This document shows positions 1 through 19,866 of a stretch of DNA of 33,896 nucleotides, piece after piece. The stretch is from Asaia bogorensis. Its GTDB lineage: Bacteria; Pseudomonadota; Alphaproteobacteria; Acetobacterales; Acetobacteraceae. The stretch's first letter is position 1. Every line of letters begins with the position of its first letter. The translations under genes were made by a program, and so were the position numbers. Location of the stretch: positions 1 through 33,896 of the forward strand of contig CAMCDA010000026.1 of assembly GCA_945873195.1 (NCBI GenBank), read 5' to 3'. Under the pieces are notes generated by a model. That model was not told the origin of the DNA, ran no database searches, and saw only the letters and a list, made by a program, of their open reading frames with translations.

Positions 1-377
1 AGCACGTGGCGCAGGCCGAGGAACACGCCCTTCACGTTCACCGCCATCACGCGGTCGAACATCTCCTCGTCATACTCGGAGGTCATGGCGATGGCCCCCT
101 CGATGCCGGCATTGTTGTAGAAGCAGTCGATCGAACCATAGGCTTCGAGGGCGAGTTTCACGTAGTTCTGCACCTCGGCCGACTTGGTCACGTCGGCGGC
201 GACGAACAGCGCGTCGCCGCCCTGCTGGCGCAGGATGCCGGCGGTGGCGTTGCCCGCGGCCTCATCCCGGTCGACGACCACGACCTTGGCGCCGCGGCTG
301 GCGAAGCCGATCGCCGAGGCTCGTCCGATGCCATTCCCCGCGCCGGTGATCAGCGCGACCTTGCCCTTGAAGTCCAT
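1..377 (-). CDS. SDR family oxidoreductase, partial (3' end outside window)
   Basis: This is a short-chain dehydrogenase/reductase, a cytoplasmic NAD(P)-dependent oxidoreductase. The visible protein is the N-terminal 125 or so residues. It opens with a Rossmann beta strand and the TGxxxGIG cofactor motif (TGAGNGIG, residues 11-18). An acidic residue follows the second strand (VVVVDRDE), which favours NAD over NADP, and the NNAG motif comes later. The catalytic Ser-Tyr-Lys lies beyond the window edge. The ATG at 375-377 has a good GGAGG-type ribosome site four to nine bases upstream. The gene starts 27 bases after the soxAG stop on the same strand, so it is probably the last gene of that transcript. 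The substrate cannot be told from this fragment; glucose 1-dehydrogenase-like is only a generic match. Confidence 0.9.
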   Translation of the reverse strand, partial: MDFKGKVALITGAGNGIGRASAIGFASRGAKVVVVDRDEAAGNATAGILRQQGGDALFVAADVTKSAEVQNYVKLALEAYGSIDCFYNNAGIEGAIAMTSEYDEEMFDRVMAVNVKGVFLGLRHV

Positions 378-404
378 TGTTCCCTCCTTACTGTGAGGAC
401 GCTG

Positions 405-3400
405 TTAGCACGTCGGCGGGAGATCGATAAATTCCCGGCGCGCGTCTTCCAGGCAAAGCCACACGTAATGCGCGAAGGACCGCGCGACCTCGATGTGGAA
501 GGTTTCGCTGCCGAGGCGCCAGAGTACGATCTCGGCCTTGCCCAGCAGGGTCCGGGTGCACATGCCGATCGGGAAGGCGGAGGGATGCAGGTCGAGCGCG
601 CAGAATGCGTTCAGGCACCAGGCGGCGCGGGGGCCGGTGATTTCGATCGAGGCATGGCGGTGGGAGACGTCGACGACGCTGGCTGGATGGTCTCCGGCGG
701 CGGCCGTGGCGGTTGCGACCAGGGTGCGATCGGATTCGGAGGCGAGGACGAGCCATTCCTCCGGCCCCAGGCCGAGGGCGGCCTTGTCGCGGGAGACGAC
801 CGTGCGGTTGGGCGCGGAGCCGAGCAGGACTCCGGCGGCGAGACCGATGGCGGTCGCGGCCTGCGGGCTGGCGTGGATGGAGAGGCGGGTGGTGGGGGCG
901 AGCGCGGTGATCCGCACGAGGGCGGAGGTGGGGGAGTCGCCGGTGAGGGCGCGGGGCAGGGGGGTTGCGGCGGGTGGCACGGGCGGTGGGACTCGAGTCC
1001 CCCCCTCCCCTTGAGGGAGGGGGCTGGGGGGAGGGGTAGCAGCGGCATCGGTGCTGGGAGGGGCAGCAGCGGCATCGGTGCTGGGAGGGGCCGTCGTGGC
1101 ACCGTCCGTGCCGCTGCCCCCCCGCCCTCCGACCTCGGTCCGCTCTGCGGCCCAAGCCCTCAAGGGGAGGGGAGGCGTTGCCGTGCGTGACCCCTCGGGC
1201 GTTGTCGCCATCCCCTCAGCCGCCGTGCGCAGCCCCTCAGGCATGGTCACACTACCTCCCGGCGCCATGCCCCCCGGTGCTGTCACCAACCCACCATCCA
1301 GGAATTTCGGCGCGGTCACCTCGACCTCGATCGTCCGCTCCCCCAACGGCACGACCATCATCTGACCAATCCGCGCCCGCCCACCCGCAACCAACGCCAA
1401 GGCAATCGAGCGGCCCAGCGTCGCGCTCTCATAAGCCGACGTCACATGCCCCAGGCTGGGCTGCGACCCGGCGGAGGCCAGGACCTGCGCGCCTTCTTCC
1501 AACAGCACCTTCGGATCACGCGTCAGCAGTCCGACCAACTGCTTCCTATCCGGACGCAGCATGTCCGGGCGGATCAGGGATCGTTTGCCGACGAAATCGC
1601 GTTTCTTCTTCGATACCGCCCAGGACAAGCCGAGGTCGTCCGGGATCACCGTCCCGTCCGTCTCCTGGCCCACAATTACGAAGCCGACCTCGGCGCGCAG
1701 GACGTGCATCGTTTCGGTGCCATAGGGCGTGATGGCCGGATCGGCGGCGATGATCTGGTCCCAGACGAACCGCGCCTGGCCGGCGGGGACGTTGATCTCG
1801 AAGCCAATCTCCCCGGTGAAGCTGACGCGGAACAACCGCACCGGCACGCCTGCGACCTTGCAGGACAGCACCGACATATGCGGCATGGCGGACAGGTCGG
1901 CGTCCTCCACGAAGGGGGCGAGGATCTCCGCGGCACGCGGGCCTTGCAGGGCGATCACGGCATATTGCTCGGTGGTGGAGGTTAGCCAGACCCGCAGGTC
2001 CGGCCACTCGGTCTGGCGGTAATCCTCCATCAGATGCAGCACGCCGGCGGCACCGCCGGTCGTGGTCGTGACGTGGAAGCGATCGGGTGCGATGCGGGCG
2101 ATCACGCCGTCGTCGCGGATGAAACCATCCTCCCCCAGCAGCAGCGCGTATTTGCAGCGGCCTACGGCCAGCGACGCCATCGCGCCGGGATACATCCGAT
2201 CGAGGAAGGCCGCCGAGTCCGGCCCCACGACCTCGATCTTGCCCAGGGTGCTGGCGTCGAAAATGCCGACGCCGGACCGGACGGCGAGGCACTCCCGCGC
2301 CACGGCGGCGTGCATGGCTTCCCCCGCGCGGGGGAAGTAATGGGCGCGCTTCCAGGTGCCCACATCCTCGAACACCGCGCCCTGGGCCTCGGCCCAGTCA
2401 TGCAGCGGCGTCTTGCGGATCGGATCGAACAGGGCGCCGCGGGACGACCCGGCCAGCGCGCCGAAGGTGACCGGCGTGAAGGGCGGGCGATAGGTGGTCA
2501 GGCCGATATCCGGCGGTGCCCCGCCCACCAGCTCCGCCACCGTCGCCAAAGCATTCAGGTTGGACGTCTTGCCCTGGTCGGTCGCCATGCCGGTGGTCGT
2601 GTAGCGCTTGACGTGCTCGATCGAGCGGAACCCCTCCTGCGTCGCGACGCGCAGATCCTTGGTGGTCACGTCGTTCTGGAAATCGACGAAGGCCCTGCCA
2701 TGCGACGCGGCGGCGCGCGGCGGGATGGAGGGCGCGACCTCGGGCAGGCCCCGCACCGCAAAGCGGTGGGGCGCGCCGCTGCCAGCCTCATGCCCCCGCG
2801 CCAGGCAGACGGCCAGGTCGAAATCCCCCGCGCAGGCACCGACCGAGACGGCGCGCGCCCCGGTTTCCCCCGGCAGGAACGTCCCCGTGCTCGGGTCGTA
2901 GCGCAGCCGCCCGCGGGACTGGGAGAACAGATGGACCGAGGGGGTCCAACCCCCGCTCATGAGCACCGTGTCGCAGCGAATGGAAGATGGCCCGTTTGCC
3001 ACCCGCGCGGCACTCACCCGCAGCCGGCCGGAGGTGGAGGTCACATTCGCCCCCGCGTGTACGGGTATGCCGGCGGCCCGCGCGGCCTCAACCAACGGCC
3101 CCGCCGCGCGCGGTCTCTGGTCGACGATCCCGGCGATCACGGTCCCGGCCTCATGCAGGTCCAAGGCGGCCAGATAGGCGCTGTCGTCGTTCGTCGCCAC
3201 AACCGCGCGGGCGCCGACCTTGACGCCATAGCGATGCAGATAGCTCCGCGCCGCCCCGGCCAGCATGATCCCCGGCCGGTCGTTGCGCGGAAACACCAAG
3301 GGCCGCTCGATCGCCCCCGTGGCCAGCACCACCCGATCCGCCCGGACCTGCCACAGACGCTCCCGCGGGAGGTTCGGGTCGGGATCGGCCAGATGGTCCG

Positions 3401-4181
3401 TCACCCGCTCCACCAAGCCGATCATGTTGTCGGGATACCAGCCGAACGCCGTGGTCCGGGGCAGCACCGTCGCGACACCGGACAATGACCTCACAACCTC
3501 GGCCAGCCAGGCCGAGGCCGACCAGCCGTCGATCGTCGCCTTATGCTCCGACAGCAAGGACCCGCCGAGTTCCGCCTGCTCGTCGCACAGGATCACCCGC
3601 GCGCCCGAGGAAGCCGCGCCCAAAGCCGCGGACAACCCCGCCGGCCCGGCGCCAATGACCAGCACGTCGCAATGAGCGTAACGATGCACATACCGGTCCG
3701 GGTCCGCCTGCCTCGGCGCCCGCCCGAGGCCCGCGGCGGCACGGATCGCCGGCTCATACAGCTTCTTCCAGAGGGCCGGCGGCCACATGAAGGTCTTGTA
3801 GTAGAACCCCGCCGACAACAACGGCCCCGCCAGCCCCGCCACCGACCCGAGATCCAGCCGCAAGGACGGAAACCGGTTCTGGCTGCGAACCACCAGACCC
3901 TCATACAACTCCACCTGGGTCGCCCGCAGGTTCGGCGTCACCCGCCCACCGCCGCGATCCACGGTCACCAGGGCGTTCGGCTCCTCCGACCCCGCCGAGA
4001 GAATCCCCCGCGGCCGATGATACTTGAACGACCGCCCCACGAGATGAACATCATTGGCCAGCAACGCCGAGGCCAGACTGTCGCCCGCATACCCAGACAA
4101 CACCCGCCCATCAAACGTGAACCCGACCACCCCGCCACGGTCCACACGCCCCACGTTCGGCACTCGGAAGGGCTGGGTCAT
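405..4181 (-). CDS. soxA: Sarcosine oxidase, fused alpha and gamma subunits (SoxA-SoxG)
   Basis: Heterotetrameric sarcosine oxidase oxidises sarcosine to glycine and passes the one-carbon unit to tetrahydrofolate. This 1258-residue frame joins two subunits that are usually separate. Residues 1-961 are the alpha subunit: an N-terminal Fer2_4-like fold, a dinucleotide-binding motif GAGPAG at 177-182, and a GcvT-like folate domain from about 585 to 955. Residues 1074-1258 match the gamma subunit in length and pattern. Between them lie about 112 low-complexity Pro/Ala/Thr/Gly residues encoded by palindromic and tandem repeat DNA. I start at the ATG at 4179-4181 (MTQPFRVPNV). The open frame upstream to 4391 is only a translated intergenic repeat. 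The ribosome site is weak. soxD lies 261 bases upstream across that repeat. Whether the product stays one chain is not known from sequence. Confidence 0.93.
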   Translation of the reverse strand: MTQPFRVPNVGRVDRGGVVGFTFDGRVLSGYAGDSLASALLANDVHLVGRSFKYHRPRGILSAGSEEPNALVTVDRGGGRVTPNLRATQVELYEGLVVRSQNRFPSLRLDLGSVAGLAGPLLSAGFYYKTFMWPPALWKKLYEPAIRAAAGLGRAPRQADPDRYVHRYAHCDVLVIGAGPAGLSAALGAASSGARVILCDEQAELGGSLLSEHKATIDGWSASAWLAEVVRSLSGVATVLPRTTAFGWYPDNMIGLVERVTDHLADPDPNLPRERLWQVRADRVVLATGAIERPLVFPRNDRPGIMLAGAARSYLHRYGVKVGARAVVATNDDSAYLAALDLHEAGTVIAGIVDQRPRAAGPLVEAARAAGIPVHAGANVTSTSGRLRVSAARVANGPSSIRCDTVLMSGGWTPSVHLFSQSRGRLRYDPSTGTFLPGETGARAVSVGACAGDFDLAVCLARGHEAGSGAPHRFAVRGLPEVAPSIPPRAAASHGRAFVDFQNDVTTKDLRVATQEGFRSIEHVKRYTTTGMATDQGKTSNLNALATVAELVGGAPPDIGLTTYRPPFTPVTFGALAGSSRGALFDPIRKTPLHDWAEAQGAVFEDVGTWKRAHYFPRAGEAMHAAVARECLAVRSGVGIFDASTLGKIEVVGPDSAAFLDRMYPGAMASLAVGRCKYALLLGEDGFIRDDGVIARIAPDRFHVTTTTGGAAGVLHLMEDYRQTEWPDLRVWLTSTTEQYAVIALQGPRAAEILAPFVEDADLSAMPHMSVLSCKVAGVPVRLFRVSFTGEIGFEINVPAGQARFVWDQIIAADPAITPYGTETMHVLRAEVGFVIVGQETDGTVIPDDLGLSWAVSKKKRDFVGKRSLIRPDMLRPDRKQLVGLLTRDPKVLLEEGAQVLASAGSQPSLGHVTSAYESATLGRSIALALVAGGRARIGQMMVVPLGERTIEVEVTAPKFLDGGLVTAPGGMAPGGSVTMPEGLRTAAEGMATTPEGSRTATPPLPLRAWAAERTEVGGRGGSGTDGATTAPPSTDAAAAPPSTDAAATPPPSPLPQGEGGTRVPPPVPPAATPLPRALTGDSPTSALVRITALAPTTRLSIHASPQAATAIGLAAGVLLGSAPNRTVVSRDKAALGLGPEEWLVLASESDRTLVATATAAAGDHPASVVDVSHRHASIEITGPRAAWCLNAFCALDLHPSAFPIGMCTRTLLGKAEIVLWRLGSETFHIEVARSFAHYVWLCLEDARREFIDLPPTC
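1001..1175. repeat. REP-doublet-like element inside soxAG, with 27-bp tandem repeat
   Basis: Two 15-base sequences, CCCTCCCCTTGAGGG at 1003-1017 and its exact reverse complement at 1157-1171, face each other. The left one also forms its own hairpin (CCCCCTCCC at 1001-1009 against GGGAGGGGG at 1015-1023, five-base loop). Between them is a 27-bp direct repeat in two copies (1037-1063 and 1064-1090) differing at one base, which encodes PSTDAAAAP and PSTDAAATP on the minus strand. The whole element stays open in the soxAG frame and supplies most of the linker. Inverted REP-like ends around a short core resemble a BIME or a small non-autonomous element, but I cannot show mobility. Confidence 0.75.
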
Positions 4182-4205
4182 GAGAGAGCTCGTTTGGGGA
4201 GAGGA

Positions 4206-4432
4206 AGGGTGGGCACACCCCACCAGGGGCGTTGCCCCTGGACCCCACCAAAGGCCGAGGCCTTTGGAAACCGGTCTGTTGGGGGGAAGGGAGGGGCCGA
4301 CCGAGGCGGTGAGAGGTCCGTGTTGGCCCCTCCCTTCCCCCCAACAAAATGGTTCCAAGGGCTGTGCCCTTGGTGGGGGTCGAGGGGGCAAAGCCCCTCG
4401 CGGGGTCCGGGGCGGAGCCCCGCTCTTTCTCT
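4206..4432. repeat. Composite multi-hairpin repeat, copy 1 (between soxD and soxA)
   Basis: This roughly 225-bp element is a chain of hairpins: one around AGGGGCGTTGCCCCT, one around AAAGGCCGAGGCCTTT, a long central stem, one around CCAAGGGCTGTGCCCTTGG, one around GGGGCAAAGCCCC, and one around GGGGCGGAGCCCC. The central stem pairs 4278-4298 with 4325-4345, a perfect 21-bp match. The same order of blocks appears at 19626-19866. It sits inside the sox operon, where it could slow or terminate transcription or stabilise mRNA. It explains the false N-terminal extension of the soxA frame. I see no gene in it. Confidence 0.8.
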
Positions 4433-4442
4433 CCCCAGATGC

Positions 4443-4715
4443 TCACCCATGCCCCAACCCTCCGGGTTTCGATGTCTGGGCGATGCGATCCGTGACGGTG
4501 TCGCGTTCGGCGTTGAAGAAGCGGCCGCAGCCGTGGATGTGGCGCCAGCGTTCGGCGTGGCGGCCTTTGGGGTTGGTGCGCATGTAGAGGAAGTCGGCCC
4601 AGGATTCGTCGTCCAGGCTCATGGGGTCTAGCGGGCGGGCGATGTGGGCCTGGCCGGCGTGGCGGAATTCGTTTTCCGGGCGGGGGCCGCACCAGGGGCA
4701 GGGGATCAGCAGCAT
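4443..4715 (-). CDS. soxD: Sarcosine oxidase delta subunit
   Basis: This is the small zinc-binding subunit of heterotetrameric sarcosine oxidase, 90 residues, the usual size. Residues C6 and C9 (CPWC near the start) with H59 and C63 (RHIHGC) fit the zinc site known in this family. The conserved stretch NPKGRHAERW precedes the second half of the site. Its ATG (4713-4715) overlaps the soxB stop codon by one base (TGATG), which implies translational coupling and a one-to-one subunit ratio. The stop is followed by the composite repeat and then soxA. The assignment is secure because of the neighbours as well as the motif. Confidence 0.95.
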   Translation of the reverse strand: MLLIPCPWCGPRPENEFRHAGQAHIARPLDPMSLDDESWADFLYMRTNPKGRHAERWRHIHGCGRFFNAERDTVTDRIAQTSKPGGLGHG

Positions 4716-5977
4716 CAGTGCGCCACCGCGGCGGCGGCCGCTTCATCGATCAGGCGGCCGGTGGTGAAGCGTTCCAGGCTGAATGGGGCGGCAATGGGGT
4801 GGGGCTCGTTGTGGGCGATCGTGGCGGCGAAGACGTGGCCTGATCCGGGCGTGGCCTTGAACCCGCCGGTGCCCCAGCCGCAATTGACGAACAGCCCGGG
4901 GACGGGGGTTTTGCCGATGATGGGGGAGCGGTCGGAGGTGCAATCGACGATCCCGCCCCAGTTCCGCAGCATCCGCAAACGGCGGAAGGTCGGGAACAGC
5001 TCACAGATCGCGTCGAGTGTGTGGGTGGCGATGTGCAGGCCGCCGGCCTGGCTGTAGGACGTATAGACATCCGTCCCGGCGCCGATCACCAGCTCTCCCT
5101 TGTCGGACTGGGAGATATAGGCGTGGATGGTGTTCGACATGACGACGCAGGGCATGACGGGCTTGATCGGTTCGCTCACCAGCGCCTGGAGCGGGTAGGA
5201 TTCCAGCGGCATCCGCACGCCGGCCATGGCCATCAGGACGCTCGTATGACCGGCGGCGACCACGCCCACGCGGTTCGCGCCGATGAAGCCTCGGGTCGTG
5301 TCGACGCCGGTGACCGCGCCGGAGGGATCGCGGGTGATGCCGGTGACCTCGCAGTTCTGGATGATGTCGACGCCGAGGGCGGAGGCCGCGCGGGCGTAGC
5401 CCCAGGCGACGGCGTCATGGCGGGCCGTGCCGCCGCGCCGTTGCAGGGCGGCGCCGAGGACCGGGTAGCGCATGCCTGGCTCGATATTCAGCGGCGGGCA
5501 GAATTCCTTGGCCTGCTCGGGGGTGAGCCATTCGTTGTCGATGCCCTGGACGCGATTCGCGTGGACGTGGCGCTTGAAAACCTGGATGTCGTGGATGTTG
5601 TGGGCGAGCATCATGACGCCGCGCGGGCTGTACATGACGTTGTAGTTCAGCACCTGGGACAGGTTTTCCCAGAGCTTCACCGAATGCTCGTAGATCGCCG
5701 CGCTCTCGTCCCAGAGGTAGTTGGAACGGATGATCGTGGTGTTGCGCCCGGTGTTGCCGCCGCCCAACCATCCCTTGTCCAGGACGGCGATGTTGCGGAT
5801 GCCGTGTTCGGCGGCGAGGTAATAGGCGGTGGCCAGGCCGTGGCCGCCGGCGCCGACGATGACGACGTCATAGGCCGATTGCGGCTCGGGTGAGCGCCAT
5901 TGTTCCCGCCAGGTGCCGCCAAAGGCGCGCCGCAGCAGGGTGAACAGGGAAAAATCGTGGCTTGGGCCCCTGGTCAT
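4715..5977 (-). CDS. soxB: Sarcosine oxidase beta subunit
   Basis: This 420-residue flavoprotein subunit carries the sarcosine dehydrogenation site. The FAD-binding GxGxxG is at residues 42-47 (GAGGHG). The motif [13 protein letters not shown] contains H187, which lines up with the histidine that covalently holds FMN in known beta subunits. The C-terminal [14 protein letters not shown] is the second flavin-contact motif of the DAO family. The first 35 residues ([18 protein letters not shown]) are also typical of SoxB. It is first in soxB-soxD-soxAG and overlaps soxD by one base. No glyA, folD or purU gene lies beside it, unlike many sox operons. The enolase-type gene ends 81 bases upstream and may be co-transcribed. 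Confidence 0.96.
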
Positions 5978-10548: not shown

Positions 10549-10567
10549 TCCGCGCGGGGCGGATCAG
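10545..10567. terminator. Bidirectional hairpin between convergent genes
   Basis: CTGATCCGC at 10545-10553 pairs perfectly with GCGGATCAG at 10559-10567 around a five-base loop. The two arms hold the stop codons of the SDR (10546-10548) and of the Hint gene (10564-10566) in mirror positions. There is no clear T-run on either side, so intrinsic termination is possible but not certain. Confidence 0.5.
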
Positions 10568-12230
10568 GCCGCGCGCCTGGTCCGCTCCAGAATCGGTGTC
10601 CCAGGACGCAGCGGATAGGCCAACCGACCGCTGCATTCGAGCCGCAGCACCGCCGGCGCGCCGAACACCGGCAGCGGTAGAACTGCGTCGCCCTTGGTCC
10701 AGCGGCGCATGGCCGTTCCGTCCCGCTCGACATCCCACCAGCCATCCCGCAGGTCAGGGTGATCCAGCGGCAGGTCCAGGCTTTCCGCGCCGACGTATGC
10801 GGTGATCCGGGACAGCCGCACACCCAACAGCCGCTGGTCGTCCAACCAGGGTTCGGCATCCGTGGGACGCGCCGACCGGGATACCAGCCGCAGGGAGCGG
10901 GTGGCGGGCGGAACGACAAAGACAATCGTGTCGCCGTCCACGGTGGTCGGCGCGATCAGCCGGCCATCGGCGGACAGCATCAGCGCGGGATCGCTGGTCA
11001 TGCCGACGGCCTCGGGCGCGCCGCCGCGATGGGCCACCCGTTCCCAGATCGCGCGGACCTGATCCGTGTCCTCGGCGAAGGGCGCGCAGGACCCTGCTAC
11101 CCGCGCGGCCTGGGCCGAGGGTTCCGCCATCACCGGATGCAACATCACCGGCGCCGGTGCATTGGCGAAGAAGCCGCGATTGCCGGTATCCAGATAGCTC
11201 TCCGTGGTCAGGCCCCCACTGAACAGGATCGCGTGCTGGTCCAATTCGACATGGAAATAGGTCACCGACCGGTCGGCCGGTTCGCGCGTGATCGTCGCGT
11301 GGTTCACGAGGCGTCGGGCCGGGACCAGCACCCCGTCGATGAACAGGGCATGATCGGGGGAGACGAGCAGGTCGCGATGCGGTTGGTTCGGCGCGATGGC
11401 GTTCCGGTGGATCCGGATCGGGGCGACCATGTCCGCTCGCCCATGGGTTGTGAGGTCGATCCGCCGCTGGCCGATCCAGGCAACCGGCCGATCCAGGCAA
11501 CCGGCCGTTCCACCCCGCCCAGGGTAATAACCCGGTCTCCAGGCACCAGGCACTCGACGGCGATCTCTCCGTCGGGTGTCAGGATGCGGGTGCCGGACAC
11601 AAAGCAGACCGAGAAGGCGGTGGTGGAAAACGGGAGGTCGGGCGTGATGGCATCGCCGGTCTGGTCGCCGGTCGCGTCCTGTGTGGTCCAGTTGGCGGGG
11701 TTGTTGATGATCGGCAGATAGTCGGCGAAGGTCGCCTGGTCGCCACGGCCGCCGGTGAAGGCCCCGATATCCACGCCGTTGTTGTCGTTTAGGGAAAGAG
11801 CCGTCTGCCCCGCGACCAGGCCGGTATTGGTCAGCACGCCGCCATTGGCCGTGGAATCGAAGTTCTTGCTGGCGATCGCCGCCAGGAAGGTCGTGGGCAC
11901 GGTCGGCGTGCCGATATAGGCGTAGACCGTATCGAATGTCGCCGACAGGCCACGCCCGGTCGAATTAGAGAAGGCAACCGAACCGACATCCGCCGTCAGC
12001 GTTCCGGTGTCGAAATTGTCGATCCGTACGATGGTACCCGCCGCGACGGTTGTGGTCGCGGTCCAGGTCCATGAGGTTTCCGTATTGGTGAAACCGACGC
12101 CGTCCCATGTCTGATCGGCGAAATGGATTTCCGTGCCGGCGGTGATCTCCTCCAGCACCACAAACGCTATGTTATCGAGGTTGTCCGAGTTGTAGCCGGT
12201 GAAAGCGATCGATCCTGCGGCCAGCGCCAT
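10564..12230 (-). pseudogene. Hint-domain protein broken by a 17-bp tandem duplication
   Basis: Two frames together encode one protein. The first, from about MALAAGSIAF (ATG 12228-12230), has an N-terminal beta-rich domain (IAFTGYNSDNLDNIAFV, FADQTWDG) seen in secreted or surface proteins with Hint_2 domains. The Hint domain then starts at CFVSGTRILTPDGEI and runs to ERPVAWIG. The second frame continues it (QRRIDLTTHGRAD, PIRIHRNAIAP, DLLVSPDHALFIDG). The junction holds gccgatccaggcaaccg twice (11470-11486 and 11487-11503). Deleting one copy restores an unbroken 549-residue reading, so the break is one event. The alternative start at 12311 lies inside a palindrome and is less likely. The family role is unclear; no signal peptide is obvious. 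The gap could be reversible by slippage. Confidence 0.8.
11469..11507. repeat. 17-bp tandem duplication inside the Hint domain
   Basis: The unit gccgatccaggcaaccg occurs at 11470-11486 and 11487-11503, and the next four bases start a third copy. The period is not a multiple of three, so it shifts the frame. It lies exactly where the two parts of the Hint domain must join. Confidence 0.9.
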
Positions 12231-12287
12231 GATGGGAGATCCCGTGTTTTTCGAACGGCCGCCAGCATAGGTGACGGGCACTGGGAT

Positions 12288-12322
12288 CGCAATTGTTGCG
12301 TCATATTTCATGGAAATATTAC
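12288..12322 (+). promoter_or_regulatory. Candidate promoter with two palindromic operators
   Basis: In an unusually A+T-rich gap, CGCAA-TTG-TTGCG (12288-12300) and ATATTTC-ATG-GAAATAT (12303-12319) are perfect dyads, each with a three-base centre. They overlap a possible plus-strand promoter: TTGTTG at 12293-12298, an 18-base spacer, and TATTAC at 12317-12322. This would drive the aminotransferase cluster, with a leader of about 140 bases. The dyad could instead act on the divergent Hint gene. The promoter match is weak; the palindromes are exact. Confidence 0.35.
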
Positions 12323-13588: not shown

Positions 13589-14452
13589 ATGCAATACGAA
13601 CATATTCTTTACCAGGTCACGGACAATATCCTGACCATCACGCTCAACCGGCCGGAGCGTCTGAACGCCGTCACCGACCGCACGATTTCGGAACTGCTCG
13701 ACGCCCTCGATCGCGCGGATCGCGACGATGATGTCCGCGTCATTGTCTTCACCGGCGCGGGCCGCGGCTATTGCGCCGGCGCCGACCTGTCCGAACGGGC
13801 CGAGACCATGGCCTCCGGCGCTGCCCCGGCCGAGGACCCGGGCATCGACGGCCACCGCGACGGCGGCGGGCTGGTGACATTGCGGCTGTTCGATTGCCTC
13901 AAACCCACGATCGCCGCCTGCAACGGGGCCGCGGTGGGCTTCGGCGTCACGATGCAATTGGCGATGGACATGCGGCTGGCGTCGGAAACCGCCCGCTACG
14001 GCTTTGTCTTCACCCGCCGCGCGATCGTGATGGAGGCTGCGTCGAGCTGGTTCCTGCCGCGCCTGGTCGGGCCGCAGCAGGCGATGGAATGGGTCATGAC
14101 CGGCCGAGTCTTCCCGGCCGAGGAAGCGCTGCGCGGCGGCCTTGTACGTTCTATCCACAAGCCGGAAGAGTTACTGCCCGCCGCCTATGCCCTGGCGCGG
14201 GAGATCGCGGAAAACACTTCCCCCATCTCCGTCGCGCTCAACCGCCAGTTGATGTGGAAGATGCTCGGCGCGGACCATCCGATGGAGGCGCATCGGTTGG
14301 ATTCAAAGGGGATCTACGCGCGCCGGCTGACGGAGGACGCGAAGGAGGGAGTATTTTCTTTCATGGAGAAGCGCAAGCCCAACTTCCCGATGAAGGTCAG
14401 CAGCGACATGCCGGCGTTCTTCCCATGGTGGAAGGACCGCCCGTTCCGATAG
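13589..14452 (+). CDS. Enoyl-CoA hydratase/isomerase family protein
   Basis: This crotonase-fold protein of 287 residues binds an acyl-CoA thioester. Oxyanion-hole segments are visible at CAGADLSE (62-69) and NGAAVGFG (112-119). E149 in AIVMEAASSW matches the second catalytic glutamate position of many family members; the first position is not clearly acidic (RLFDCLKP region), so an isomerase or other activity is possible. The C-terminal tail with FPWWKDRPF is typical of a bacterial subgroup fed by acyl-CoA ligases. It begins nine bases after the aminotransferase. A 361-base repeat-rich gap follows before the GMC gene. The substrate is unknown. Confidence 0.88.
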   Translation: MQYEHILYQVTDNILTITLNRPERLNAVTDRTISELLDALDRADRDDDVRVIVFTGAGRGYCAGADLSERAETMASGAAPAEDPGIDGHRDGGGLVTLRLFDCLKPTIAACNGAAVGFGVTMQLAMDMRLASETARYGFVFTRRAIVMEAASSWFLPRLVGPQQAMEWVMTGRVFPAEEALRGGLVRSIHKPEELLPAAYALAREIAENTSPISVALNRQLMWKMLGADHPMEAHRLDSKGIYARRLTEDAKEGVFSFMEKRKPNFPMKVSSDMPAFFPWWKDRPFR

Positions 14453-14813
14453 GGCCGGGGGGCGTTTCAGTTTCGTTTTGCTTCGGTTCCAGCTTCGGTT
14501 CCAGATCCGGTTCCGGCTTCCGTTTCGGTGTCCGTTCCGGCCCCAGTCCGTTACCAACCCGTCCTGGTCGGGCTCGACCCGACCATCGCCAAGCAGCACG
14601 ACGTGTGAAAAGCCCCCCGACCGCCCGGAGTCCTCGGCGATGGTCGGGTCGAGCCCGACCAGGACGGGAGGGGCCGTCCCGCGCCCAAGCGGCAACGACA
14701 ATGGCCCCCACGCGCCAGGACTGCCCCAACCTCCAGCCCCTACCACCCAGGTTGACAACAACCCCAACCCCGGCCGACTGAATCCCCCAGCAGAACCCCC
14801 GAGACGCAGCACC
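14453..14813. other. Gene-free, repeat-rich gap before the GMC gene
   Basis: No coding region is supported here. From about 14476 to 14550 runs a pyrimidine-rich stretch of degenerate short repeats built on TTCGGTTCC and TTCCGGTTCC. The inverted pair at 14558-14668 follows. The remaining 145 bases are C-rich, without a clear promoter or strong ribosome site for the GMC ATG at 14814. Confidence 0.6.
14558..14668. repeat. Perfect 33-bp inverted repeat, 45-base loop
   Basis: Bases 14558-14590 are the exact reverse complement of 14636-14668. Each arm also contains its own small palindrome around TCGGGCTCGACCCGA. The right arm and the following bases (to about 14692) match a single copy at 26954-27000 with scattered changes, so this is a dispersed family, here as a head-to-head pair. 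Confidence 0.85.
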
Positions 14814-16412
14814 ATGTCCGATCCCGTAGACGTTCTCATCATCGGCGCCGGCGCCTCCGGTGGCGCTGTCGCCTGGAGCCTCGCCGAAACGAAAATGCGC
14901 ATCGTCTGCCTGGAGCAGGGCGACTGGATGAAGCCGTCCGAATACCCCTCGGCCGGGCGCGACTGGGAAGCCCGCCAGATGGGCGATTTCAACCCAAGCC
15001 CCAACCGCCGCGGCCGCATCACCGATTACCCGATCAGCGAGGATGACTCGCCCATCAAGATCGCCAATTTCAACGGCGTGGGCGGTGGCACGGTGCTGTA
15101 TGCGGGGCATTTCCCGCGCTTCCATCCCTCCGACTTCCGGGTGCGTTCGCTGGATGGCGTGGCCGATGACTGGCCGATCACCTACCAGGACCTCGAACCC
15201 TATTACGCCGAGAACGACCGGATGATGGGCGTCTCGGGCCTGGCCGGGGACCCGGCCTATCCGCCGAAGCAGCCGATGATGCCGCCGCTGCCGCTGGGCA
15301 AGGGTGGCGCCAAGCTGGCCACCGGCCTGAACAAGCTGGGCTGGCACTGGTGGCCGTCCGACAGCGCCATTGCCACGGTGGATTACGAGGGGCGGGCGAA
15401 ATGCATCAACCTCGGCCATTGCACATCCGGCTGCGCGCAGGGCGCCAAGGCGAGCACCGACATCACCTATTGGCCCGCCGCGATCAGGGCCGGCGTGGAA
15501 CTGCGGACCCGCTGCCGGGTGCGGGAGATCACGACGGGCCCCGACGGCATGGCCACCGGCGTGGTCTACTACGATGAACACGGGGTCGAGCACTTCCAGG
15601 CCGCCCATGTCGTCATCGTCGCCTGCAACGGGATCGGCACGCCGCGCGTCCTGCTGAACTCGGTCTCCGGCCGCCATCCCAGGGGCATCGGCAATTCCAG
15701 CGGCCTGGTGGGCAAGAACCTGATGTTCCACCCCTATGCCCAGATCTACGGCTATTTCGACAGCCCGACCGACGGCTATCGCGGCCCCGGCGACTGTATC
15801 TGGAGCCAGGAGTTCTACGAAACCGACCTCGGCCGCGGCTTCGTGCGCGGCTATACGTTCGAGTTCACGCGCGGCCAGGGCGCCATCATGGCTGCGGTCA
15901 CCGGCATGGCGACCGGACGGCTGCCCTGGGGCGAGGACCACCACGACGCCTATCGCCGCCTGCACTCCCATCGCTCCGGCATGGTCGCGATCTGCGAGGA
16001 TCTGCCGGAGGAACACAACACCGTCACCCTCGACCCGCAGTTGCGGGATTCGAGCGGCATCCCAGCGCCCCGCATCACCTACACGCTGAGTGAGAACAGC
16101 CGGCGGATGCTGGAACACTCGGTCGCCCGCGGGACCGAGGTCCTCCGCGCCGCCGGCGCCTATGACGTCGGCTTCGAAAGCCCGCTCGGCCATGGCGGCT
16201 GGCATTTGATGGGCACCGCGCGGATGGGCTTCGACCCGGAGCGCTCGGTGGTCAACGAATGGGGCCGCAGCCACGACGTGAAGAACCTGTTCGTTGTGGA
16301 TGGCAGCGTTTTCGTGACCTCCGCCGGGGTGAACCCGACCTGCACGATCCAGGCGTTGGCGCTGTATGTTGCCGACAACATCAAGAAGCGCCTCGCCAAT
16401 CTGTTCGACTGA
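14814..16412 (+). CDS. GMC family oxidoreductase
   Basis: This 532-residue FAD enzyme of the glucose-methanol-choline family oxidises an alcohol or sugar. The FAD motif GAGASG is at 11-16 (VDVLIIGAGASGG). The conserved NFNGVGGGTVLYAGHFPR is the second FAD segment. The C-terminal domain has GGWHLMGTARMG near residue 462 and NPTCTIQALA near 505, which hold the catalytic His and Asn. CxxxC-like cysteines in KCINLGHCTSGC resemble the gluconate 2-dehydrogenase/GMC electron-transfer subgroup. A small partner-like gene follows 21 bases later, which supports a membrane-linked dehydrogenase rather than an oxygen-using oxidase. I start at MSDPVDVLII (ATG 14814); the frame upstream translates repeats. 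No cytochrome subunit is present nearby. Confidence 0.9.
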   Translation: MSDPVDVLIIGAGASGGAVAWSLAETKMRIVCLEQGDWMKPSEYPSAGRDWEARQMGDFNPSPNRRGRITDYPISEDDSPIKIANFNGVGGGTVLYAGHFPRFHPSDFRVRSLDGVADDWPITYQDLEPYYAENDRMMGVSGLAGDPAYPPKQPMMPPLPLGKGGAKLATGLNKLGWHWWPSDSAIATVDYEGRAKCINLGHCTSGCAQGAKASTDITYWPAAIRAGVELRTRCRVREITTGPDGMATGVVYYDEHGVEHFQAAHVVIVACNGIGTPRVLLNSVSGRHPRGIGNSSGLVGKNLMFHPYAQIYGYFDSPTDGYRGPGDCIWSQEFYETDLGRGFVRGYTFEFTRGQGAIMAAVTGMATGRLPWGEDHHDAYRRLHSHRSGMVAICEDLPEEHNTVTLDPQLRDSSGIPAPRITYTLSENSRRMLEHSVARGTEVLRAAGAYDVGFESPLGHGGWHLMGTARMGFDPERSVVNEWGRSHDVKNLFVVDGSVFVTSAGVNPTCTIQALALYVADNIKKRLANLFD

Positions 16413-16433
16413 GCCTCCGATGGGAACCACGCC

Positions 16434-16880
16434 ATGAGTGCCCCGCTTTCCCCCCTCCAGCAGCGCGCGCTGCGGCGCCTGGCCGGCATGATGATCCCGC
16501 CGAGCTTGAAGTATGACGTGCCGGGCGCGGATGATGAGACGATCATGGCGGATATCCTGGCCAGCGTCGGCCAGGACCACGAACATGTCGTGTTCGTCCT
16601 GGCTGACCTGGACAGACGGGCCGGCGGCGTGTTCGCCGACCTCGAACCCGCCGAGGCGCGAGTTGTCGCCGAACGCATGCGCACCGCGAGCGGGCAGGCT
16701 CTGCGCTTCGTCACGCAGTTGATCCTGGCATGCTATTACCGCGACGACCGGGTGATGCGGTCGCTGAACATGGAAACCCGCCCGCCGTTCCCGAAGGGGT
16801 TTACGGTGGAGCAGGGGGATTGGTCTCTGCTTGATCCCGTGCGGTCGCGCCCGAAACTGTATCGGGATGCGCCTCCCTGA
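16434..16880 (+). CDS. Small partner subunit of GMC dehydrogenase (gluconate 2-dehydrogenase subunit 3-like)
   Basis: This 148-residue protein begins LSPLQQRALRRLAGMMIPPS, like the N-terminal segment of gluconate 2-dehydrogenase subunit 3 proteins, which usually sit beside a GMC large subunit. It is helical and charged. The Tat signal often found in this family is absent, so its location is unclear. The C-terminus (GDWSLLDPVRSRPKLYRD) is strongly patterned and probably conserved. The ATG at 16434 follows the GMC stop by 21 bases. It converges on the VOC gene with an eight-base gap. The family match is from pattern and context. Confidence 0.72.
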   Translation: MSAPLSPLQQRALRRLAGMMIPPSLKYDVPGADDETIMADILASVGQDHEHVVFVLADLDRRAGGVFADLEPAEARVVAERMRTASGQALRFVTQLILACYYRDDRVMRSLNMETRPPFPKGFTVEQGDWSLLDPVRSRPKLYRDAPP

Positions 16881-16888
16881 GGGGCCGC

Positions 16889-17749
16889 CTAGGCCACGAA
16901 CTCCACCGCCGCGCCGAACGCCGCCGCCGCTGGCACGACGATCCGGTGGGCTTCCCGCCGGACCCCGGCGATCCGGCCCGACGCCAGTGCCGCCGCGGCC
17001 ATGTCGAGGGATCGGGTCCGGAACGACAGCCCCGCCATCATGTCCGCCCGCCCGTCGGCCGCCGGGGCCGCGTCGCCGAACCGGTTGGACAACTCCTCGG
17101 GCGTCACGACATCGAACGTCGACAAGCCGACCATCAGCGAACAGCCGCCGGGGATCGCCCGCACCGCGCCCGGGCCGAACATCCGCCCGAACAGAGCGCC
17201 CCATTCGGCCGGGTCCCGCGCCATGATCACCGCCCGCGCCACGGCAACGACGCCGTTCGCGTGGTGGCGCCATTCATCGCGCCAGACTAGGTCGCGCGTC
17301 AGGTGATGGCAGAAATACAGCCGCCCATCAGGGATGGTTCCCTCGGGCAGGCGCACGGTGCGGAACGTGGCGTCGCGCGGACCGCCGGCGATCTCCACCG
17401 GGCGGGTGAATTCGCGCGGCGGCAGCGCCGGCACCCCGGCGGCGACCATTGCCGCATAGACGCCGGCGGACTCGTCGGTGCCGAACACGAGGCCATTCAG
17501 CCCCTCGGGGCTGCCCAGGATTTCCGGCCGCCTGGTGTCGCCGGGCGGCGCCGCGATCAGTTCCAGATAGTCGGTGCCGAAGATCGCCAGATGGTTCATC
17601 GACCCCAGCGAGTGATACCCGCGCGGCGTCAGGGTGAAGCCGAGGCGGCGATAGGTGTCCTCCCCCGCGTCGATCCGGTCACGCACATTGATCACGACGT
17701 GATCGAGAGTGGGCAAAGGGGGGGTCGGCAAGGGGGGAATATGAGTCAT
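16889..17749 (-). CDS. VOC family (glyoxalase-like) protein
   Basis: This 286-residue protein begins with LDHVVINVRD, followed by YRRLGFTLTPRGYHSLGSMNHLAIFGTDYLELI, the pattern of a vicinal-oxygen-chelate beta-alpha-beta-beta-beta unit with a His metal ligand. It resembles the glyoxalase-like domain group (PF13468 type) in length and two-lobe layout. The substrate is unknown. ATG at 17747-17749 is chosen because GGAGG lies six bases upstream and the fold begins soon after. About 50 bases further upstream is a minus-strand hairpin terminator, so transcription may be controlled by attenuation, or the gene has its own promoter between the two. Confidence 0.8.
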   Translation of the reverse strand: MTHIPPLPTPPLPTLDHVVINVRDRIDAGEDTYRRLGFTLTPRGYHSLGSMNHLAIFGTDYLELIAAPPGDTRRPEILGSPEGLNGLVFGTDESAGVYAAMVAAGVPALPPREFTRPVEIAGGPRDATFRTVRLPEGTIPDGRLYFCHHLTRDLVWRDEWRHHANGVVAVARAVIMARDPAEWGALFGRMFGPGAVRAIPGGCSLMVGLSTFDVVTPEELSNRFGDAAPAADGRADMMAGLSFRTRSLDMAAAALASGRIAGVRREAHRIVVPAAAAFGAAVEFVA

Positions 17750-19633: not shown

Positions 19634-19866
19634 GGAGCGGGGCTCCGCCCCGGACCCCGCCAGGGGCTTTGCCCCTGGACCCCACCAAAGGCCTTGGCCT
19701 TTGGAAACCATTGGTTGGGGGGAATGCGGGATGGGCCAACACGGACCCATCCAGGTCCGTATTGGCCCCTCCCGCATTCCCCCCGGTGAGCGGTTCCAAG
19801 GGCTGTGCCCTTGGTGGGGGCCCAGGGGGCAAAGCCCCCTGGTGGGGTTTGAGGTGAAACCCCATT
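19634..19866. repeat. Composite multi-hairpin repeat, copy 2
   Basis: It has the same ordered hairpins as 4206-4432. The central stem here pairs GGGGGGAATGCGGG (19717-19730) with CCCGCATTCCCCCC (19771-19784), then GGCCAACACGGACC (19734-19747) with 19754-19767 at one mismatch. The base sequence of the stem differs from copy 1, but both are self-complementary. It lies just after the FAH stop and just before the stop of the small minus-strand gene at 19870, so both could use it as a terminator. Confidence 0.8.

Follow-up and report, generated by a model that had tools for sequence, protein, structure and literature searches.

Within a 33,896-nt stretch of Asaia bogorensis (GenBank assembly GCA_945873195.1, contig CAMCDA010000026.1, positions 1 to 33,896; hereafter the window), the genes for the alpha (SoxA) and gamma (SoxG) subunits of a sarcosine oxidase are joined in one open reading frame, soxAG, through a linker that carries a dispersed palindromic repeat. 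The explanation that best fits the comparisons below, and that very probably holds, is that the join arose in the ancestor of the genus at an overlap between soxA and soxG, that the tether between the two parts grew later, and that the product is the alpha-gamma subunit of a three-chain enzyme.

The soxAG frame runs on the minus strand from an ATG at 4181 to a stop at 405–407, encoding 1258 uninterrupted residues. The NCBIfam soxA model (TIGR01372) matches residues 6–962 with 1382.9 bits (cut-off 1164), and the soxG model (TIGR01375) matches residues 1107–1250 with 147.3 bits, a narrow pass over its cut-off of 143.95. Pfam SoxG scores 54.4 bits against a cut-off of 21 and completes the domain order Fer2_4, FAD/NAD-binding, SO_alpha_A3, GCV_T, GCV_T_C and SoxG. 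The solved alpha subunit 2gag_A aligns to residues 149–957, with a separate stretch at 11–76, and the solved gamma subunit 2gag_C to residues 1085–1252; the linker, at about residues 963–1084, is a low-complexity segment of 122 amino acids (aa). The original prediction had read alpha to about residue 961 and gamma from about 1074, with no stop between them and a low-complexity linker of 112 residues encoded by inverted and tandem repeats. Alignment to the separate subunits bears out this architecture, with alpha ending at 962, gamma starting near 1085, and an inverted pair and a 27-nt tandem repeat lying in the linker DNA.

Several lines of evidence support an old fusion and a young linker repeat. 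First, the fusion is widespread in the genus. A SoxG profile search matched 28 of 33 genus genomes at E <= 0.001. Reading fusion status from 29 SoxG matches (E <= 6.2e-21, 28 genomes) in longer stretches placed soxA and soxG in one frame in 26 of the 28, so that a search for the same fusion in related genomes, as had been suggested, finds it in most of them. Linker length, taken as the distance between the residue equivalents of 962 and 1085, is 15–36 aa in 20 of the 26 fused genes and at least 50 aa in 6 (G126, 50; G120, 55; G127, 76; the window, 122; G101, 205, including 26 N; G106, 206). In a maximum-likelihood tree of 47 rows, chosen from 132 and covering the second half of alpha, the 27 genus rows (the 26 fused genes and G102, the sister genome of the window's) form one clade with support of 100/97, and the window and G102 are sisters nested inside it. 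A quick tree of all 132 rows recovers the same genus clade with support of 92.

Second, the fusion is rare elsewhere. A set of genome contigs yielded 80 loci, of which 4 lacked a soxA end and 1 a soxG match; among the 75 evaluable loci, 74 are unfused and one (L039), which we take to be the genus member G110, is fused. A search of 397 genomes of the family gave matches in 147 at E <= 1e-15; among the matches listed, soxG frames outside the genus measure 124–351 aa and no fusion occurs outside the genus except in G094 (frame 929 aa). Two wider searches at the same threshold covered the class (385 genomes, of which 143 matched) and the phylum (398 genomes, of which 91 matched); among the matches listed for either, the window alone has a soxG frame longer than 364 aa. 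SoxG also gave weak matches in frames of 800–1290 aa (E 5e-10 to 8e-4, covering profile positions 31–152 or part of them), which we interpret as the folate domain of SoxA-like or GcvT-like proteins. Among plasmids, 935 records match; in the best 15 of the 935 the match falls in two pieces and, where these records are annotated, alpha and gamma are separate genes. Among the papers listed, a literature search of titles and abstract openings found no report of a SoxA–SoxG fusion, nor of the window's linker repeat in Acetobacteraceae.

Third, the unfused relatives suggest how the join was made. At 15 chosen unfused junctions, soxG is always in the +1 frame with respect to soxA; in 12 of them a soxG ATG in frame follows the residue-962 codon at a distance of 19 nt, and in 13 the soxA stop falls at +24. 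Similarly, soxG is in frame +1 in 68 of the 74 unfused contig loci. Many fused genes retain the same alpha tail (DPxGxRL or near) and then continue in frame 0; the window's own alpha tail has diverged from this motif. Because unfused relatives mostly have soxG in +1, overlapping the soxA stop, loss of that stop together with a net frame change at the overlap, not an insertion, would explain the fusion. In the sequence of events that we propose, the genus ancestor would have lost the soxA stop at a short soxA/soxG overlap and undergone a net frame shift there; the two genes would then have been joined head to tail, with little between the two parts except the native alpha tail and gamma head. 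Palindromic repeats and tandem arrays would then have grown within the tether in separate lineages, and linker versions that kept the frame and were free of stops would have persisted because gamma was still needed.

Fourth, the window's repeat has a narrower distribution than the fusion. The window's linker DNA contains an inverted pair (999–1024 and 1150–1175, 85% complementary), and the coding strand folds better than all 200 shuffles (z -3.71). Searched against the window's own genome (G000; 5.4 Mb in a 400-contig assembly, 97.8% complete), it gives 58 matches including the query, the best other at E 3.3e-18, which fall mainly in two linker blocks at about query positions 39–92 and 145–222. 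Several genome copies stand close together in inverted orientation, for example C197:3392-3434(+) and 3448-3495(-); the pairs span 103–161 nt at C141, C197, C336, C5 and C60, and 184 nt in the window. Both the folding and the matches across the genome exceed what would be expected by chance, and the linker element is a dispersed palindromic repeat family. It matches 15 of the 33 genus genomes at E <= 0.001.

The original prediction had traced the fusion to the insertion of such a repeat, which would have eliminated the soxA stop while preserving the frame. The repeat does sit within the linker, where the open frame passes through it, but 18 of the 33 genus genomes have no repeat match at that threshold, 20 of the 26 fused genes have short linkers, and other fused genes carry different repeats. 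When the 26 linkers, G102 and the fused gene of G094 were compared with the window's element by BLAST, it turned up at E 1e-39 in the window and G102; the linkers of G106, G125 and G100 gave only 14–26-nt matches (E 8e-4 to 0.009). We rejected a repeat-made fusion on this restriction to the window and G102 linkers and on the nested position of the window lineage in the fused clade, and regard such an origin as highly improbable. As read from the linkers and the tree, the fusion is older than the window's repeat.

A decaying gene or an assembly artefact is less probable still. A high-copy repeat in a 400-contig assembly could invite such an error, and the G102 assembly has N bases in its linker and gamma part. 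However, G102, whose alpha is 96% identical to the window's, carries the element at the same position (76% over query 1–224); the junction is not a lone error of the window's assembly because this other assembly has the element at the same place, which also tells against the sequencing error or missed stop in the linker that had been named as a possible refutation. Both halves of the gene, moreover, are constrained: between the window and G102, the ratio of non-synonymous to synonymous substitution rates (dN/dS) is 0.079 for alpha and 0.092 for gamma (over 121 codons), and gamma gives 0.06–0.25 in nine other chosen pairs. These ratios indicate that gamma past the linker is under purifying selection.

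Several observations weigh against an ancestral fusion that yields a single alpha-gamma chain. None of the 33 genus genomes exceeds the curated SoxG cut-off in the genome search, where the window's soxG scores 140.1 bits, slightly below 143.95. Two genus copies of soxA and soxG, G101:C34 and G115, are separate genes; the former is divergent and the latter groups with a Xanthobacter copy. The frame is uncertain in G101, whose linker holds the 26 N, runs off its contig in G109 and is broken in G102, the nearest relative of the window, at the N bases; we set G102 aside as a counterexample on account of those bases. At the unfused junctions, 6 of the 74 loci lie outside frame +1 (three +0 and three +2). 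G094, from another genus, is fused, with its frame open at the contig end, and joins the clade weakly (89/37), so that the fusion may have had a second origin; that it is a stray contig from the genus is unsupported, since it is placed outside the 27-row genus clade. As a separate observation on this genome of the same family, its fused soxA–soxG lies at C337 (L150) and a separate soxG match at C207.

The last points of this kind concern the number of chains. Start codons in frame occur in the linkers of the window and of many relatives; in the window, one ATG and one GTG come with Shine–Dalgarno (SD)-like motifs, so an additional, separate gamma could be made. Two chains could thus arise despite the open frame, either from an internal gamma start in the linker, for which the window's ATG at residue 980 and the candidate starts of many relatives offer sites, or by cleavage of the linker after synthesis, as long linkers rich in proline and alanine are often protease-sensitive. 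The candidate start positions vary between genomes, however, and in G110 the stretch between residue 962 and the tenth codon of gamma is free of ATG, GTG and TTG codons in frame; a full-length gamma in that genome must then be read as part of the fused frame, barring initiation at a rarer codon. The frame shared by 26 genus genes (with N in the G101 linker) is also not something that internal initiation alone would require. We consider two chains unlikely and, from the gene sequences, expect alpha-gamma to be made as a single polypeptide. By analogy with the known enzyme, beta, delta and alpha-gamma would assemble as they do there, with alpha and gamma always 1:1, and the repeat-encoded segment would serve as a long, probably disordered spacer with no activity of its own.

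Linker growth recurs in other lineages. The G106 linker contains three copies (one 78% identical) of a 23-nt palindrome, ATGGCCGGGCTCGACCCGGCCAT, along with a 54/18-nt tandem array, and the same palindrome occurs in the linkers of G101 and G120. Searched against five genomes, the G106 linker produced 155 matches in its own genome, with 165 for G101, 91 for the window's genome, 68 for G120 and 82 for G127. The G120 linker also holds a 9-nt array and that of G126 a 63-nt duplication; the repeat search detected none in the G127 linker. The tandem periods in the linkers are multiples of three. Judged by these sequences, linkers in several lineages have lengthened in different ways, whether through another palindrome family, tandem arrays or the window's repeat.

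The window's repeat is also read through in other genes of its genome. We scanned 30 repeat loci, some overlapping, for frames running through the repeat and found 23, soxAG among them; 10 of the 23 were searched against Pfam, and 4 matched a family and 6 none. Besides soxAG, two frames have homology on both sides of the repeat. One is a UvrD/AddA-type helicase (G000:C197, L026; frame 3-3041, minus) with an in-frame repeat insert of 70 aa, residues 464–533, splitting two stretches that are only 7 residues apart in RecB and lying between the segments containing QDTSPEQ and GDPKQSIY; the first RecB-aligned stretch is weak alone, and Pfam UvrD-helicase covers residues 56–465. The other is a glutamyl-tRNA synthetase (G000:C336, L031; frame 411-2072, plus) with both repeat arms inside, its catalytic domain before the repeat and its anticodon-binding domain after it (24.4 bits, cut-off 23.6). 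The two other Pfam-matched frames have the family on one side of the repeat only, and a 574-aa membrane-like frame carries the repeat with no Pfam match.

These features resemble those of the Rickettsia palindromic elements (RPE), which are described as dispersed palindromes some of which lie in frame in conserved protein genes (PMC2229807, PMC3767692), 19 protein genes being given in the first (PMC2229807). Like RPE and the protein-coding palindromes of Wolbachia, the window's repeat is dispersed, palindromic, about 100–180 nt long and in frame in conserved proteins, a likeness of features. Unlike RPE, it is GC-rich, resides in a 5.4 Mb genome and has one copy in the tether of a gene fusion. 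In being short, dispersed and often inverted-paired, it also resembles repetitive extragenic palindromic (REP) elements with REP-associated tyrosine transposases (RAYT). Such a transposase domain, Y1_Tnp (PF01797), matches 5 of the 33 genus genomes and has 0 matches in the window's genome (E <= 1e-5; 97.8% complete), and a RAYT as mobiliser of the repeat was rejected on this result.

Taken more broadly, and with confidence only a little above even, we propose that the genus has fixed a SoxA–SoxG fusion whose tether, from 15 to about 206 residues in a three-chain enzyme, is a place where repeats of several unrelated types, read as protein, have repeatedly landed and expanded, part of a genome-wide palindrome load like that of Rickettsia and Wolbachia. 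The 26 related genes, with tethers of 15 to 206 aa, form a natural series that reveals the order of events, in which fusion at the stop/start overlap would have come first and repeats would have exploited the join afterwards. The series suggests that palindromic repeats become protein beyond Rickettsiales, and offers a ready test of the effect of tether length on a multi-subunit flavoenzyme.

The neighbouring genes upstream of soxAG fit the assignment. SoxB scores 558 bits against 3ada_B, SoxD aligns to 2gag_D over 78 residues, and the soxB, soxD, soxA and soxG families stand together in a single cluster, each above its NCBIfam cut-off (soxG narrowly). In delta, C6, C9, the histidine after AERW and the GC cysteine all align with 2gag_D; we take these residues to be zinc ligands. 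The locus shares with heterotetrameric sarcosine oxidase (2gag/2gah, 1vrq/3ada) the four subunit families, the gene order B-D-A-G and the alpha domain order; unlike that enzyme of four separate chains, it has alpha and gamma in one frame, as read from the genes, with a linker of 122 aa in the window. The NCBIfam sox models work at the subfamily level, and a related N-methylglutamate dehydrogenase family exists. The genes soxB, soxD and soxAG probably form an operon encoding a sarcosine oxidase of the heterotetrameric type; from the known enzyme family, sarcosine, as opposed to a related N-methyl amine, is the predicted substrate.

Table 1. Features of the soxB-soxD-soxAG locus, in window coordinates.
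Feature	Position	Strand	Note
soxAG, fused sarcosine oxidase alpha-gamma gene	405..4181	-	1258 codons + stop
Alpha (SoxA) part, residues 1-962	1296..4181	-	Fer2_4, FAD/NAD-binding, SO_alpha_A3, GCV_T, GCV_T_C
Linker, residues 963-1084	930..1295	-	between aligned alpha and gamma parts
Gamma (SoxG) part, residues 1085-1258, + stop	405..929	-	Pfam, NCBIfam, solved-subunit alignment
In-frame ATG, residue 980; possible internal start	1242..1244	-	SD-like motif upstream
Dispersed palindromic repeat, arm	998..1051	.	query 39-92 of linker search
Dispersed palindromic repeat, opposite arm	1104..1181	.	query 145-222 of linker search
27-nt tandem repeat	1029..1091	.	2.3 copies
soxD-soxA spacer	4182..4442	.	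261 nt, other inverted repeats
soxD (delta)	4443..4715	-	Pfam, NCBIfam, solved-subunit match
soxB (beta)	4715..5977	-	Pfam, NCBIfam, solved-subunit match

At the soxD–soxA junction the two genes overlap by 4 nt in 19 of 27 genus loci but are 261 nt apart in the window and 270 nt apart in G102; the repeats in the window's spacer stay intergenic, in contrast to those of the linker. They form nested inverted repeats (4243-4264/4357-4378 and 4269-4301/4322-4354), and at 19639-19687 a unit of similar appearance, GGGGCTCCGCCCC...GACCCCACCA, is repeated in tandem. Elsewhere in the window, a 958-codon open frame at 14400-17273 (minus) has no Pfam match at E <= 1e-10. At 10567-12311, Hint_2 is split over overlapping frames (profile 1-42 in 11307-12311 and 35-146 in 10567-11553), which suggests a frameshift or a sequencing error.

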